From contig JAHBYL010000001.1 in the NCBI GenBank assembly GCA_019635955.1, forward strand, positions 1 to 64,000: DNA of 64,000 nucleotides. The letters run 5' to 3'. Numbering within the stretch: the stretch's first letter is position 1; every line of letters starts with the position of its first letter. The stretch comes from Parvibaculum sp. GTDB lineage: Bacteria > Pseudomonadota > Alphaproteobacteria > Parvibaculales > Parvibaculaceae. This document shows positions 28,920 to 32,616 of this stretch, in pieces. The notes below the pieces were generated by a model. That model had not been told where the DNA came from, did not search any database, and saw only the letters and a list, made by a program, of their open reading frames with translations. The translations under genes were made by a program, and so were the position numbers.

Positions 28920-29734
28920 AGATGCGCGCGACGATCCTTGGATGCGGTTCCTCAGGCGGCGTTCCGCGGCCGGGCATTGGCGGGCCGTTCTGGGGCGCCT
29001 GCGACCCGGAAGAGCCGAAGAACCGGCGACGGCGCTGCTCGCTGCTCGTTGAGCAATGGGACAAGGACCCGAACGAAAAGACCGTCGTGCTGGTCGATAC
29101 GTCGCCCGACATGCGCGACCAGCTGATCGACGCAAAGACCGGCTGGGTCGATGCTGTGCTCTTCACGCATGACCATGCCGACCAGTGCCACGGGATCGAC
29201 GATCTGCGGATGCTCGCGATCAACAAGCGCCGCCGGGTCGATTGCTGGATGGACGCACCGACCGCCGACACGCTGCTTACGCGTTTCGGCTATTGCTTTC
29301 GGGAGAAGCCGGGCTCGGGTTATCCCGCGATCCTCAACGATCACATGATCGAGAGTCCCGGCAAGCCGATCCGAATCGACGGGCCCGGCGGCACCATCAC
29401 CGCACTGCCGTTCGACCAGGATCACGGCAATATCCGTTCGCTCGGATTCCGTTTCGGACCCTTCGCCTATTCGGCGGATGCAGTCGGTATTCCGGATGAG
29501 AGTTTCGCGCTACTAGACGGAATTCATTGCTGGATCGTGGATGCGCTGCGCTATGCGCCACACCCGACGCATGCTCATGTCGACATGGCGCTCGAATGGC
29601 TGAAGCGGGCGAGGGTGCCGCAGGGCATCCTCACCAATATGCATGTCGACCTGGACTATGGCCGGCTGAAAGGCGAACTGCCGACAGGTGTCGAACCCGC
29701 CTATGACGGCATGACGGTCGAATTCGAACTCTGA
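28916..29734 (+). CDS. MBL fold metallo-hydrolase (PhnP/RNase Z-like)
   Basis: 272 aa. Starts with ATILGCGSSGGVPRPG, the phosphodiesterase-type beta-lactamase fold N-terminus, followed by LVDTSPDMRDQL and the zinc motif THDHADQCHGIDDLR, then PFDQDHGNIRSLGFRFG and a C-terminal HVDMALEWLKRARVPQGILTNMHVDLDY. Similar to PhnP, a cyclic phosphodiesterase, and to the conserved gene following tatD in alphaproteobacteria. The physiological substrate is unknown. It overlaps the tatD stop by four bases. Confidence 0.9.
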   Translation: MKMRATILGCGSSGGVPRPGIGGPFWGACDPEEPKNRRRRCSLLVEQWDKDPNEKTVVLVDTSPDMRDQLIDAKTGWVDAVLFTHDHADQCHGIDDLRMLAINKRRRVDCWMDAPTADTLLTRFGYCFREKPGSGYPAILNDHMIESPGKPIRIDGPGGTITALPFDQDHGNIRSLGFRFGPFAYSADAVGIPDESFALLDGIHCWIVDALRYAPHPTHAHVDMALEWLKRARVPQGILTNMHVDLDYGRLKGELPTGVEPAYDGMTVEFEL

Positions 29735-29742
29735 ACATGAAA

Positions 29743-29773
29743 TGGCCCGGACACGCTGAACGCGCCCGGGCCA
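29743..29773. terminator. Stem-loop between convergent genes
   Basis: TGGCCCGG and CCGGGCCA (8-bp perfect arms, 15-base loop) start eight bases after the MBL stop and lie 22 bases from the stop of the convergent gene. Short A or T runs flank both sides (AAA after, ATTTC on the minus strand), so it may serve both directions. Confidence 0.5.
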
Positions 29774-29794
29774 AATCGCAGCAAGACTTCGTGC

Positions 29795-30364
29795 TTACTG
29801 GTTTTTCGTCTGCGTCCGCGTCTCGCGGAGGATTTCTCCCGTCGCAGGATTTACGACGACTTCGACCTTGTTGCCGTGAGTGTCGAATGCCGTGAAGGCA
29901 CTGCCGTCGGCTGCGGCGGCCCCTTCGCTCGGGCGAATATCGGTGTAGCCGCGCTGCGTCAGAAGGTGGGTCGTCACGTCGGACCCGGTCGCGCCGCCGG
30001 TAACGCCGTCGACCGTGCCGGTCGTTCCTGTCGTGCCCGCGCCGCCCGTTGCGCCTGTGGCTCCGGTGCCGGCTGCTCCCGTACCCGTCGCTCCAGTGGT
30101 TCCGGTCGTGCCGGTGGCGCCCGTGGTGCCGTCCATCGTGCCGTCAACCGAGCCCGATGCGCCGCCCGTCGTGCCGGTGGTGCCGCCCATGGTGCCATCG
30201 ACGTCGCCCGTCACGCCACCTGTCGTGCCCGGCGTTCCGGTCGTTCCATCGATGGTTCCCGTGGCGCCGGCGCCAGCACCGCCTGCGTCCTGCGCAAGGG
30301 CGGGCGAAGCCGCGAGAGCAAAAACGGCAGTGCCTGCGAGAAGGGACTTGGTCCAGGATTTCAT
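29795..30364 (-). CDS. Exported Gly/Thr-repeat protein with C-terminal PepSY-like module
   Basis: 189 aa; no named family. Signal peptide residues 1-24 ([19 protein letters not shown], cleavage after ALA). Residues 26-128 are almost pure Gly, Thr, Ala and Asp, with many GxT triplets (GTT, GAT) reminiscent of collagen-like tracts but too irregular to be one. Residues 133-181 are a compact domain with [10 protein letters not shown], then [25 protein letters not shown]. This module recurs in the next three genes on this strand. It should be periplasmic or surface located. CTGGAGGACG precedes the ATG. Confidence 0.75.
29990..30290. repeat. Degenerate short tandem repeats inside the Gly/Thr-rich gene
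   Basis: Imperfect three- and nine-base repeats (plus strand: GTTCCGGTCGTGCC, GTGGCGCCCGTGGTGCCG and variants) encode the Gly-x-Thr tract of the gene on the minus strand. Such tracts are prone to slippage, so length may vary between strains. Confidence 0.6.
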
Positions 30365-30474
30365 TGATCGTCCTCCAGTCTGTATCTCGGTCCCACGTCA
30401 CCACCCATAGAAGCGAACTGGGGCGGCGGGAGGATGGGTCAATGGGAGGAGGGCCGATTACGCCCGGCAGGACG

Positions 30475-30511
30475 AAAAAGCCTGGCCCGCGCATCACACA
30501 GATGGCGGGCC
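30475..30511 (-). terminator. Rho-independent terminator after the gene at 30536-30952
   Basis: On the minus strand a 7-bp stem (GGCCCGC and GCGGGCC, 14-base loop) is followed after four bases by TTTTT (30479-30475). It lies 25 bases after the stop codon of the gene at 30536. Confidence 0.6.
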
Positions 30512-30535
30512 TGACTTTTCAGCGCGCGATGGAAC

Positions 30536-30952
30536 TTATTGTTTCGACGGTTTGTCGAGCTTGCGCAGATAGGTTTCACGCGTGATTTCGCCGGTGCGCT
30601 TGTCGACGATTAGTTTCACCGGTTCACCCATGCGGTTTGCAGCATGGAAGGCCATTTCGCTTTCGAGCGTAACACCGGGCACGCGTTCGGCGCCGTGATA
30701 GCCTTTCTCCTCAAGCCAGGCGATCGGATCGACGAGGTCCATCGTGTTGCCGACAAGCGCACCTGTCGTTGTCGTGGTCACGGTGGTCGTGGTCACCGTG
30801 CCGCTTGCCGGATCGACATAGGTGTCGCTTGCGGCGCCGACCGCAGGACCACCCTGCACAACAACCAGCGTATCGGCCAGCGCCGAAAGGGGCGCGGCGG
30901 CGATACCGGCCGCAGCGGCGGCAACAAGAAACGGCTTTCTGATCTTCTGCAT
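30536..30952 (-). CDS. Exported protein with C-terminal PepSY-like module (138 aa)
   Basis: 138 aa; second member of the local family. Signal peptide residues 1-27 (QKIRKPFLVAAAAAGIAAA, cleavage after ALA). A short Thr-rich segment (residues 50-65, TVTTTTVTTTTTG) is the counterpart of the longer low-complexity part of its neighbours. Residues 78-127 are the shared module: AWLEEKGYHGAERVPG, then AFHAANRMGEPVKLIVDKRTGEITRE. The ATG at 30952 is preceded by AAGGGAG; an upstream in-frame start would spoil the signal peptide. Likely periplasmic; function unknown. Confidence 0.72.
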   Translation of the reverse strand: MQKIRKPFLVAAAAAGIAAAPLSALADTLVVVQGGPAVGAASDTYVDPASGTVTTTTVTTTTTGALVGNTMDLVDPIAWLEEKGYHGAERVPGVTLESEMAFHAANRMGEPVKLIVDKRTGEITRETYLRKLDKPSKQ

Positions 30953-30995
30953 GAGACTTGTCTCCCTTGATCCGTCCCCATGCACCCTCACCATA

Positions 30996-31021
30996 AACGC
31001 TTCAGTGCCTGAAACCGCTCC
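30996..31021 (-). promoter_or_regulatory. Candidate ECF-type promoter, gene at 30536-30952
   Basis: On the minus strand GGAGC is followed after 17 bases by CGTT, 44 bases before the ATG. This is one mismatch from the GGAAC/CGTT pattern known for alphaproteobacterial EcfG (general stress sigma factor) promoters. It is the weakest of three similar sites in this cluster. Confidence 0.3.
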
Positions 31022-31087
31022 CGACGACGGGGAACATTGTCAGAAAATCGGACAGTGTGAATCAACACTGTGCAGAACGCTGCGCGC

Positions 31088-31124
31088 AAAAGAGAACGGC
31101 GCGGAAGCCGAAACTTCCGCGCCG
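31088..31124 (-). terminator. Rho-independent terminator after the gene at 31148-31468
   Basis: A perfect 11-bp stem (CGGCGCGGAAG and CTTCCGCGCCG, six-base loop) begins 24 bases after the stop codon. On the minus strand it is followed by the T-rich TTCTCTTTT. Confidence 0.75.
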
Positions 31125-31147
31125 CTCGTCACATCCCGGAGACGGGA

Positions 31148-31468
31148 TTAGTAGGCCGGCTCTTCGCCGATCACCGTTGCGGAGTTCGAGTCGAACTCCA
31201 CCGTCACGCGGTCGCCATCGATGTTGGTGGCGTTGAAGCGCTGCACACCATCCTCGGAAGCGTCGCCTTCAGCTTCGACCGGCTCGATATCCGTATAGCC
31301 GAGAGCCTGGAGCGAGGTTTCCGCGTCACCGGCCGGGGAGAGCTCCACGGCGCCTTCCATCTGCGCGTCGGCGCCGGCGGGCTGATCCATGTCCGCGGCA
31401 AGCGCGGGACCGGCGATCAGGCCAAGGCTGGCGGTACCGGCGAGAAGGAGCTTCTTGAAGTTCGTCAT
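31148..31468 (-). CDS. Exported protein with C-terminal PepSY-like module (106 aa)
   Basis: 106 aa; third member of the local family and the one with the shortest linker. Signal peptide residues 1-25 (TNFKKLLLAGTASLGLIAG, cleavage after ALA), nearly the same as in the 214-aa neighbour. An acidic linker (residues 26-50) leads to the shared module at 52-102: LQALGYTDIEPVEAEG, then FNATNIDGDRVTVEFDSNSATVIGE. The start at 31468 gives a nine-base spacing to GGAGG; ATG 31474, two codons upstream, is only three bases from it and is the alternative. Acidic and small; probably periplasmic. Function unknown. Confidence 0.72.
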   Translation of the reverse strand: MTNFKKLLLAGTASLGLIAGPALAADMDQPAGADAQMEGAVELSPAGDAETSLQALGYTDIEPVEAEGDASEDGVQRFNATNIDGDRVTVEFDSNSATVIGEEPAY

Positions 31469-31520
31469 GGTCATGTTCCTCCAGAAGAGTTGTGCAGCCC
31501 TGTCGTTGCTGCGATACCCA

Positions 31521-31547
31521 TACAACGTCCCGGAAGCCAAACGGTTC
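31521..31547 (-). promoter_or_regulatory. Candidate ECF-type promoter, gene at 31148-31468
   Basis: On the minus strand GAACCG, 15 bases, GTTGTA. Read as GAAC-N16-CGTT this fits the EcfG consensus except for the first G. It ends 47-53 bases before the start codon. The same two hexamers with the same spacing precede the next gene at 32379-32405. Confidence 0.45.
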
Positions 31548-31611
31548 ACCGTATCAAGAAACTGCCCCGGATGTGGCCGCGATGTGACGAAATCCCATAA
31601 TCTGCAGCACC

Positions 31612-31656
31612 AAAAAGAGAAGAGGGCGCAACACGCTCTCGGCGTATCGCACCCTC
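31612..31656 (-). terminator. Rho-independent terminator after the gene at 31686-32330
   Basis: On the minus strand the stem GAGGGTGCG...CGCCCTC encloses an inner ACGC/GCGT pair, and is followed by TTCTCTTTTT. It begins 30 bases after the stop codon. Confidence 0.65.
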
Positions 31657-31685
31657 CGTGTCCTGACGAAATGTGTGAGCCGGGA

Positions 31686-32330
31686 TTATTCCGCCTGCTC
31701 GTTGAGGACCATCCCGGTGCGCCCGTCGACGACGACTTTCACCGGCTCGCCATCCGGGTTGGTGGCAGTGAATTCAGATTCACCTCCCGCCGATGCTGCG
31801 CCTTCCACCGGCTCGATGTCGCTGTAGCCCAACTGGGCGAGGCTGGCCGCCGGGTCAATATCGGGAACCGGTGCCATGTCGCCTTCAGCCTGCGCGGTGC
31901 CGCCGCCGGAGACGCTCCCGCCGATGCCACCCAATTCCGCCTCGGTATCGCTGCTGACGGCGCCTTTGCCGGCTCCGGCGAGGCCCGAAACGGCCCCGGT
32001 GGCGGTGTCCGCCGCGCCACGGACTGTACCCTGGGCATTGTTGACGGTGTTCTGAACCGCTCCAGGGTTAGCCGCACCGGTACCCGATACCGATGCACCG
32101 CCCTTGGCGCCAACCGAAAGGCCGGTGGGGGAGCCTGCGTTCGTGCCGGCGGCGTCCATGCGCGAGTCTACGGAAGCATCGCCAGCCACGCCGCCGGAAG
32201 CGGCTCCGCCCGGGACAGCACCCGAGACGGCGCCAGTGGTGTTGCCGAGCAGGTCATTTGCCAGCACGGGCGACGCGATCAGCGCGAAGCTTGCCGTACC
32301 TGCGAGAAGTATCTTCTTCAGCTGCGTCAT
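31686..32330 (-). CDS. Exported Gly/Ala-rich protein with C-terminal PepSY-like module (214 aa)
   Basis: 214 aa; fourth and longest member of the local family. Signal peptide residues 1-24 (TQLKKILLAGTASFALIAS, cleavage after VLA). Residues 28-155 are a flexible Gly/Ala/Ser/Val-rich tract with repeated TGAVSG units (residues 32-37 and 111-116). Residues 163-212 are the shared module: LAQLGYSDIEPVEG, then FTATNPDGEPVKVVVDGRTGMVLNE. It ends VDGRTG as PepSY domains do. CTGGAGGATC precedes the ATG. It is probably periplasmic or surface-exposed. Function unknown. Confidence 0.75.
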   Translation of the reverse strand: MTQLKKILLAGTASFALIASPVLANDLLGNTTGAVSGAVPGGAASGGVAGDASVDSRMDAAGTNAGSPTGLSVGAKGGASVSGTGAANPGAVQNTVNNAQGTVRGAADTATGAVSGLAGAGKGAVSSDTEAELGGIGGSVSGGGTAQAEGDMAPVPDIDPAASLAQLGYSDIEPVEGAASAGGESEFTATNPDGEPVKVVVDGRTGMVLNEQAE

Positions 32331-32378
32331 GGGAATGATCCTCCAGACTGTCGATGCCCCCAGGCAACCCGATCCGGT

Positions 32379-32405
32379 TACAACTATCCAAACGTCACGC
32401 GGTTC
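32379..32405 (-). promoter_or_regulatory. Candidate ECF-type promoter, gene at 31686-32330
   Basis: On the minus strand GAACCG, 15 bases, GTTGTA: both hexamers and the spacing equal those at 31521-31547, and the site ends 49 bases before the ATG. The sequence between the hexamers differs, so the match is not simply a copied stretch. Confidence 0.45.
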
Positions 32406-32535
32406 GACGTCCTGGCGAAATACCCCGAAATGACCTCATGTGTGGCGGAAATGGACGAAGGTAAGCCGCTGTTACAAAAGCCTTTTGCCTGACCGGATCG
32501 TTGTTGCCCCCAAAGAACGGGCCAACCCGCCGAGG

Positions 32536-32580
32536 CATATAATATTTTCTCCATAATATATATTATCGGCTATTTAATAC
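32536..32580. other. AT-rich patch with a 14-base palindrome
   Basis: Between the sugar dehydrogenase stop and the exported-protein gene, about 45 bases are nearly all A and T, including the perfect palindrome ATAATATATATTAT (32553-32566). No gene is seen in this 286-base gap. It may be a binding site for a nucleoid protein or an upstream promoter element; nothing proves either. Confidence 0.4.
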
Positions 32581-32616
32581 AGAAGTTCCAAGCCTTGCGG
32601 ACCAGCACCCCTCCGC

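Follow-up and report, generated by a model that had tools for sequence, protein, structure and literature searches.

Promoters of the EcfG sigma factor (ECF15) in Alphaproteobacteria follow the consensus GGAAC-N16-CGTT. According to the accessible part of PMC7083833, their -10 boxes are flexible, e.g., TGTT or GGTT, and the AAC triplet of the -35 box is almost invariant (3/79 mismatched). The available portion of PMC6599016 contains GGAGC-N16-CGTT at one EcfG-dependent gene, with a score of 7.8, i.e., below the cut-off of 10 for direct targets. Free-living Alphaproteobacteria essentially all have EcfG, NepR and PhyR, as stated in the excerpt of PMC3892343 (2013) at our disposal.

We analyzed a stretch of 64,000 nucleotides from Parvibaculum sp., hereafter the window. 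On its minus strand, between 29795 and 32330, lie four paralogous genes for short proteins, which we read as a signal peptide followed by a C-terminal part (Table 1). The array is flanked on one side by genes that, from their translations, we take to be mbl, tatD and metG, and on the other by a GSDH gene (Pfam). The array proteins scored at most 22.4 bits against PepSY_2 (PF13670), below the curated cut-off of 24.3 bits, and matched no NCBIfam family at E 0.01. An AlphaFold model of a 107-residue array protein (last residue omitted from the query) had a mean pLDDT of 66.5 and a pTM of 0.46, and gave no fold match in the PDB at E 0.001 or better; Rv0603 (E 0.25) and YpmB (E 1.1) were too weak to count as evidence of a fold relative. 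Five terminator-like hairpins were found in the array region (shuffles, mean 2.5, sd 1.7). Such hairpins stand 3' of three of the four genes, which are therefore probably transcribed alone. In the relative G024, one array gene is apparently broken (G024:C1:2386447-2386884), with matches in separate pieces and an open frame of 51 residues.

Table 1. Array genes, predicted promoter elements and hairpins, in positions of the window.
Feature	Position	Strand	Remarks
Array gene, secreted protein	31686..32330	-	weak PepSY_2 match
Array gene, secreted protein	31148..31474	-	weak PepSY_2 match
Array gene	30536..30952	-	start set at ATG 30952; PepSY_2 E 0.87 only
Array gene without EcfG-type motif	29795..30364	-	weak PepSY_2 match
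Predicted EcfG-type promoter of gene 31686-32330	32382..32406	-	-35 CGAAC 32402-32406, 16 bases, -10 AGTT 32382-32385
Predicted EcfG-type promoter of gene 31148-31474	31524..31548	-	-35 TGAAC 31544-31548, 16 bases, -10 CGTT 31524-31527
Predicted variant EcfG-type promoter of gene 30536-30952	30996..31021	-	-35 GGAGC 31017-31021, 17 bases, -10 CGTT 30996-30999
TTGAC before gene 29795-30364	30438..30442	-	78 nt out
GGTCATTTCG element	32426..32435	-	upstream of -35 box; also at array genes of both NepR and NepR-less relatives
Terminator-like hairpin	31621..31657	-	3' of gene 31686-32330
Terminator-like hairpin	31094..31127	-	3' of gene 31148-31474
Terminator-like hairpin	29743..29773	-	3' of gene 29795-30364

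An earlier note on this DNA had described two copies of GAACCG-N15-GTTGTA on the minus strand, and both were recovered, at 31521-31547 and 32379-32405. They are near the gene starts as it said, at 46 and 48 bases rather than 47 and 49, a difference of counting. The weaker GGAGC-N17-CGTT form that it had seen before the gene at 30536 was confirmed as well, and so was the lack of the motif at gene 29795. Its description of the sequence between the hexamers as unrelated was slightly overstated: by eye, the two sites share 8 of the 16 bases that separate GAAC from the -10 box, the CG of GAACCG accounting for two. The sites at 31548, 32406 and 31021 are 49, 51 and 43 nt out (-10 box to ATG), i.e., close to the start as expected of EcfG-dependent promoters, and their spacers and -10 boxes (16/CGTT, 16/AGTT and 17/CGTT) are within the 16-17 bases and the CGTT-like sequence of EcfG sites. 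The near-invariant AAC of the -35 box is present in two of the three (TGAAC, CGAAC); the GGAGC of gene 30536 breaks the triplet as given in the consulted part of PMC7083833. Both 31474 and 32330 (A of ATG) are preceded by TGGAGG. A mechanical call had set the start of the third open reading frame at GTG 31549, which would put the motif inside the frame; this start is unlikely because the signal peptide starts at ATG 31474.

From these boxes and from their distribution in related genomes, we conclude that three of the four array genes very probably have promoters for an EcfG-type sigma factor, in which the boxes serve as -35 and -10 elements. This reading is well supported, since the same box pair stands before nepR-ecfG in 8/8 genomes and the array motifs track NepR. 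In a stressed cell, the anti-sigma factor NepR would be bound by phosphorylated PhyR. EcfG, thus freed, would guide RNA polymerase to each array gene singly, and the products would be small proteins for export whose C-terminal part is PepSY-like. We infer EcfG binding and, with it, a possible induction of the array genes in stress or stationary phase.

Within the genus, we searched for the stress system itself (G-numbers denote genomes of the comparison set, G000 being the own assembly). NepR was found at E 0.001 in 16/61 genomes (15 over the cut-off), among them 12 of the 27 in the genus; G000 gave no hit. Full-length PhyR (E below 1e-90) was present in 9/23 genus genomes scanned, all with NepR; in G005, NepR is near a contig edge and full-length PhyR is missing. 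The stress locus of G002 has the order histidine kinase (HisKA_2), nepR, phyR, ecfG, second nepR. TGAAC-N16-CGTT precedes the second nepR-ecfG unit in all eight genomes examined, out of 11 with EcfG in the stretches taken (G015, G006 and G020 were left out). The genus itself hence has T in the first position, as at array site 31548. Upstream of phyR (L092-L102), ATGAAACTC or GTGAAACTC is followed about 16 bases on by GTTCC in 11 genomes; on the other strand, this resembles GGAAC-N16-AGTT towards nepR and the kinase, possibly as part of a divergent EcfG promoter pair.

We built a promoter model from seven distinct nepR-ecfG sites of these eight genomes (G008 and G024 are identical). As its sites were picked 250-263 nt before ecfG for their good match to the consensus, the model owes nothing to the array but is not independent of the consensus; where equal-scoring alternatives occurred (G008, G024, G013), the site at the common position was taken. 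With this model, array site 31548 ranked first of 255,894 placements in the window. Site 32406 reached 9.76 bits (p 0.05 against shuffles of its upstream region), outside the top 15 of the window, and the site at 30996-31021 was not singled out.

Of 61 genomes searched, 23 had array-type matches. Four weak matches from other families were left out, and we compared 19 stretches from 18 genomes besides the window, all in the genus; the nearest relative, G002, is 94.8% identical over 9 kb at the array. An EcfG-type site 30-65 nt before the start was present at 16/22 array promoters in NepR genomes and at 1/12 in NepR-less ones, a contrast with a Fisher p of 0.0008 that is too small, as the genomes are related and not independent; the own array has 3/4. 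Relatives without the stress system are thus mostly without EcfG-type array promoters too. Six of the 22 promoters in NepR genomes lack the site. The single NepR-less exception is G023, which is 79% complete and gave no NepR hit; given this completeness and a high pattern count (20 vs 7), it may have a stress system outside the assembly. The promoter count omits a G026 gene with 57 nt upstream, open reading frames in G016, G011 and G025 whose profile match stops short of the N-terminus, and the apparently broken second gene of G024. Before orthologues of gene 30536, GGAGC-N16/17-NGTT was found in eight of nine cases, own gene included, and TGAAC-N16-CGTT in the ninth. The 17 array sites all agree in bases two, three and five of the -35 box and in the GTT of the -10 box, which is no test because the selection demanded those letters.

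The NepR-less class includes seven genomes (G001, G004, G007, G012, G017, G018 and G019) in which, at 98-100% stated completeness, neither NepR nor full-length PhyR nor canonical EcfG was found. The two classes are not perfectly clean, as G012 carries an EcfG-like gene on a 3.7 kb contig; the more distant EcfG-like matches of G012 and G019 are 40-45% identical.

In the window, the long motif with up to three mismatches was at chance level (36 found, 32.3 expected). GAAC-N16-MGTT occurred five times against 2.25 expected, and 13/100 shuffles reached five, so that this loose pattern tells little without position and relatives. A relaxed pattern gave 18 occurrences on both strands of the window, array sites included, i.e., 0.004 per 30-base zone. 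In the own assembly (3,259,428 bases), GAACCG-N15-GTTGTA has two exact matches, both at the array (reversed-pattern control, one). The genome-wide scan for GGAAC-N16-17-CGTT suggested by the earlier note showed no excess, with 52 sites against 72 of the reversed control, and plain consensus counting is hence unhelpful here; KGAACY-N15-CGTT likewise gave 14 vs 14. Across the genus, KGAACY-N15-CGTT and its reversed control numbered 344/199 in the 12 NepR genomes and 280/285 in the 15 without NepR. The Fisher p of 4e-6 and the per-genome rank p of 0.004 are again too small for related genomes, and the NepR genome G025 had no excess (22 vs 24).

At 7/12 NepR-less promoters, GGGTTGA(C/T) was found instead; it occurred at 0/22 promoters of NepR genomes and at 0/4 own ones. 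The seven come from exactly G017, G026, G001, G012, G022 and G010; the NepR-less promoters without it are one of G001, two of the distant G019, and those of G014 and G023. A tatD + mbl tree of 18 genomes unites the NepR-less G017, G026, G001, G012 and G022 in one clade (support 0.99) and places G010 beside G000/G002/G021 (support 0.999). TTGAC is 73-79 nt out in these NepR-less relatives. The own array holds both types side by side, with TTGAC before gene 29795 (78 nt out also in G002, 79 nt in G021) and EcfG-type boxes at its neighbours. Aligned on the common GGTCATTTCG element, G025 reads GGTCATTTCGTGACCGGGTGAACCTG and G017 reads GGTCATTTCGTGATTGGGTTGACCTG, the -35 boxes being in register and unlike at two bases. 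The sequence GGTMATTTCG, with at most one mismatch, occurs in 11/38 upstream regions (base shuffles, mean 0.3, largest 2; the sequences are related) and in both promoter classes, 19 nt upstream of the -35 box in the own genome and 8 nt in G025. It is possibly the binding site of another regulator.

We tentatively propose that lineages within the genus lost the general stress response and kept the array under control by a change of the -35 box from TGAAC to TTGAC in the same place, which would have handed the genes to another, perhaps housekeeping, sigma factor; we hold this for possible and do not favor it. A housekeeping promoter at the TTGAC sites is a guess: when 29700-32600 was scanned for sigma-70-type promoters, a single weak box pair came up, away from TTGAC (shuffles, mean 0.6), so that such a promoter for gene 29795 is unsupported by a -10 box. 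The EcfG-type promoters themselves are of a known type; more interesting is their replacement in those relatives that lack the stress system.

The proposal of the earlier note that EcfG reads the array is supported in part, by the relatives rather than by the own genome. Counting against EcfG are the lack of a stress locus and of a motif excess in the own assembly, the lack of an excess in G025, the 6/22 promoters without a site, the site in G023, and the broken AAC in GGAGC. G000 is 86.8% complete with a stated contamination of 5.4%; no NepR, full-length PhyR or canonical EcfG was found in it, and its sister G002 has the locus. Compared with G000, 5.9 kb of the G002 stress locus matched nothing beyond 44 bases (best 40 of 160 candidates). 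Stretches 645001-665000 and 665001-685000 of G002 gave no near-identical match (best 40 of 378 and of 229, respectively); among the candidates scored, identities were 65-89%, the longest match being 963 bases at 65%, and these look like paralogues. As the search with these 40 kb met no contig end or junction in G000, an assembly gap and a deletion are not separable. For G010 (74% complete), G002 645001-665000 gave short matches (31-369 bases, 65-94% identity) and for G021 long ones; a loss of the locus in G010 is hence unproven, and its absence may be incompleteness.

If the own strain had no canonical stress locus, the array might be driven by a second, EcfG-like sigma factor encoded on contig C138 (L139:12999-13646), near a putative short-chain dehydrogenase gene. 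This factor is 43% identical to EcfG, and a palindromic GGAAC-N16-CGTT is 41 nt before its start. In a sigma factor tree (3/24 stretches without a usable match, i.e., G000 C24, G000 C2 and G010 C13), it groups with EcfG, a split with support 0.97 setting this group off from the other ECF factors of the tree, and it pairs with C297 of G012 (support 0.82); PRK12547 is the best NCBIfam match of both this factor and G002 EcfG, below the cut-off in either case. The tetranucleotide profile of C138 resembles the window (correlation 0.984-0.988), which is no proof that the contig is the strain's own, since G002 profiles, among them 625001-645000, used in this composition comparison only, are equally close. 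The missing 40 kb speak for this explanation too. Yet at 86.8% completeness such a gap is unsurprising, G002, 94.8% identical at the array, has the locus, and the C138 gene has GGAAC, where the array has TGAAC, CGAAC and GGAGC; we therefore regard the C138 factor as an unlikely driver. The locus is probably absent from the assembly only. The completeness agrees with a gap, and so do the boxes of the own array, which are intact here and missing from the NepR-less clade.

We consider it quite improbable that the array promoters are read not by EcfG but by some other ECF sigma factor that prefers a GAAC-type -35 box. ECF sigma factors as a class typically go with AAC in this box, as far as the available part of PMC7083833 goes; besides C138, three more ECF-type matches occur in the own genome (C24, C112 and C2), and no canonical EcfG. 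However, the array sites agree with the nepR-ecfG promoters of the genus in spacing and in both boxes, and where NepR, PhyR and canonical EcfG are missing, most array sites are missing too, although other ECF-type genes remain there. Paralogy of the array genes and the agreement of half the inter-box bases could also reflect nothing but shared descent of duplicated upstream DNA, with a functionless match. This is very hard to reconcile with boxes that, throughout the genus, are kept at orthologous genes amid differing DNA, and that are gone from most NepR-less relatives though some upstream DNA still aligns. An EcfG-type sigma factor thus remains our preferred reading.

Compared with described EcfG (ECF15) promoters, the array sites are alike in spacing, in a -10 box of CGTT or a variant, in nearness to the start and, in two of three, in the GAAC core; sites of the same type precede nepR-ecfG in the genus. 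They differ in the first -35 base, which is T or C in two sites instead of G, and in GGAGC at the third. The Sphingomonas melonis EcfG regulon likewise includes short secreted or hypothetical proteins; a PepSY-type array as found here was not met in the available part of PMC6599016. The C138 factor resembles the non-canonical EcfG copies in the accessible text of PMC3892343 in being EcfG-like, in a genome without a NepR hit. Our literature search found PepSY, EcfG and the general stress response nowhere together, and nothing on stress-regulon control of this protein family in the genus. On our reading, the general stress regulon of the genus would include a family of small secreted proteins that changes fast. 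The seven nearly complete genomes without the system contrast with its near-universal occurrence as given in the consulted part of PMC3892343, and the genus is also a natural experiment in which to follow differences in target promoters where the sigma factor of the regulon is missing.
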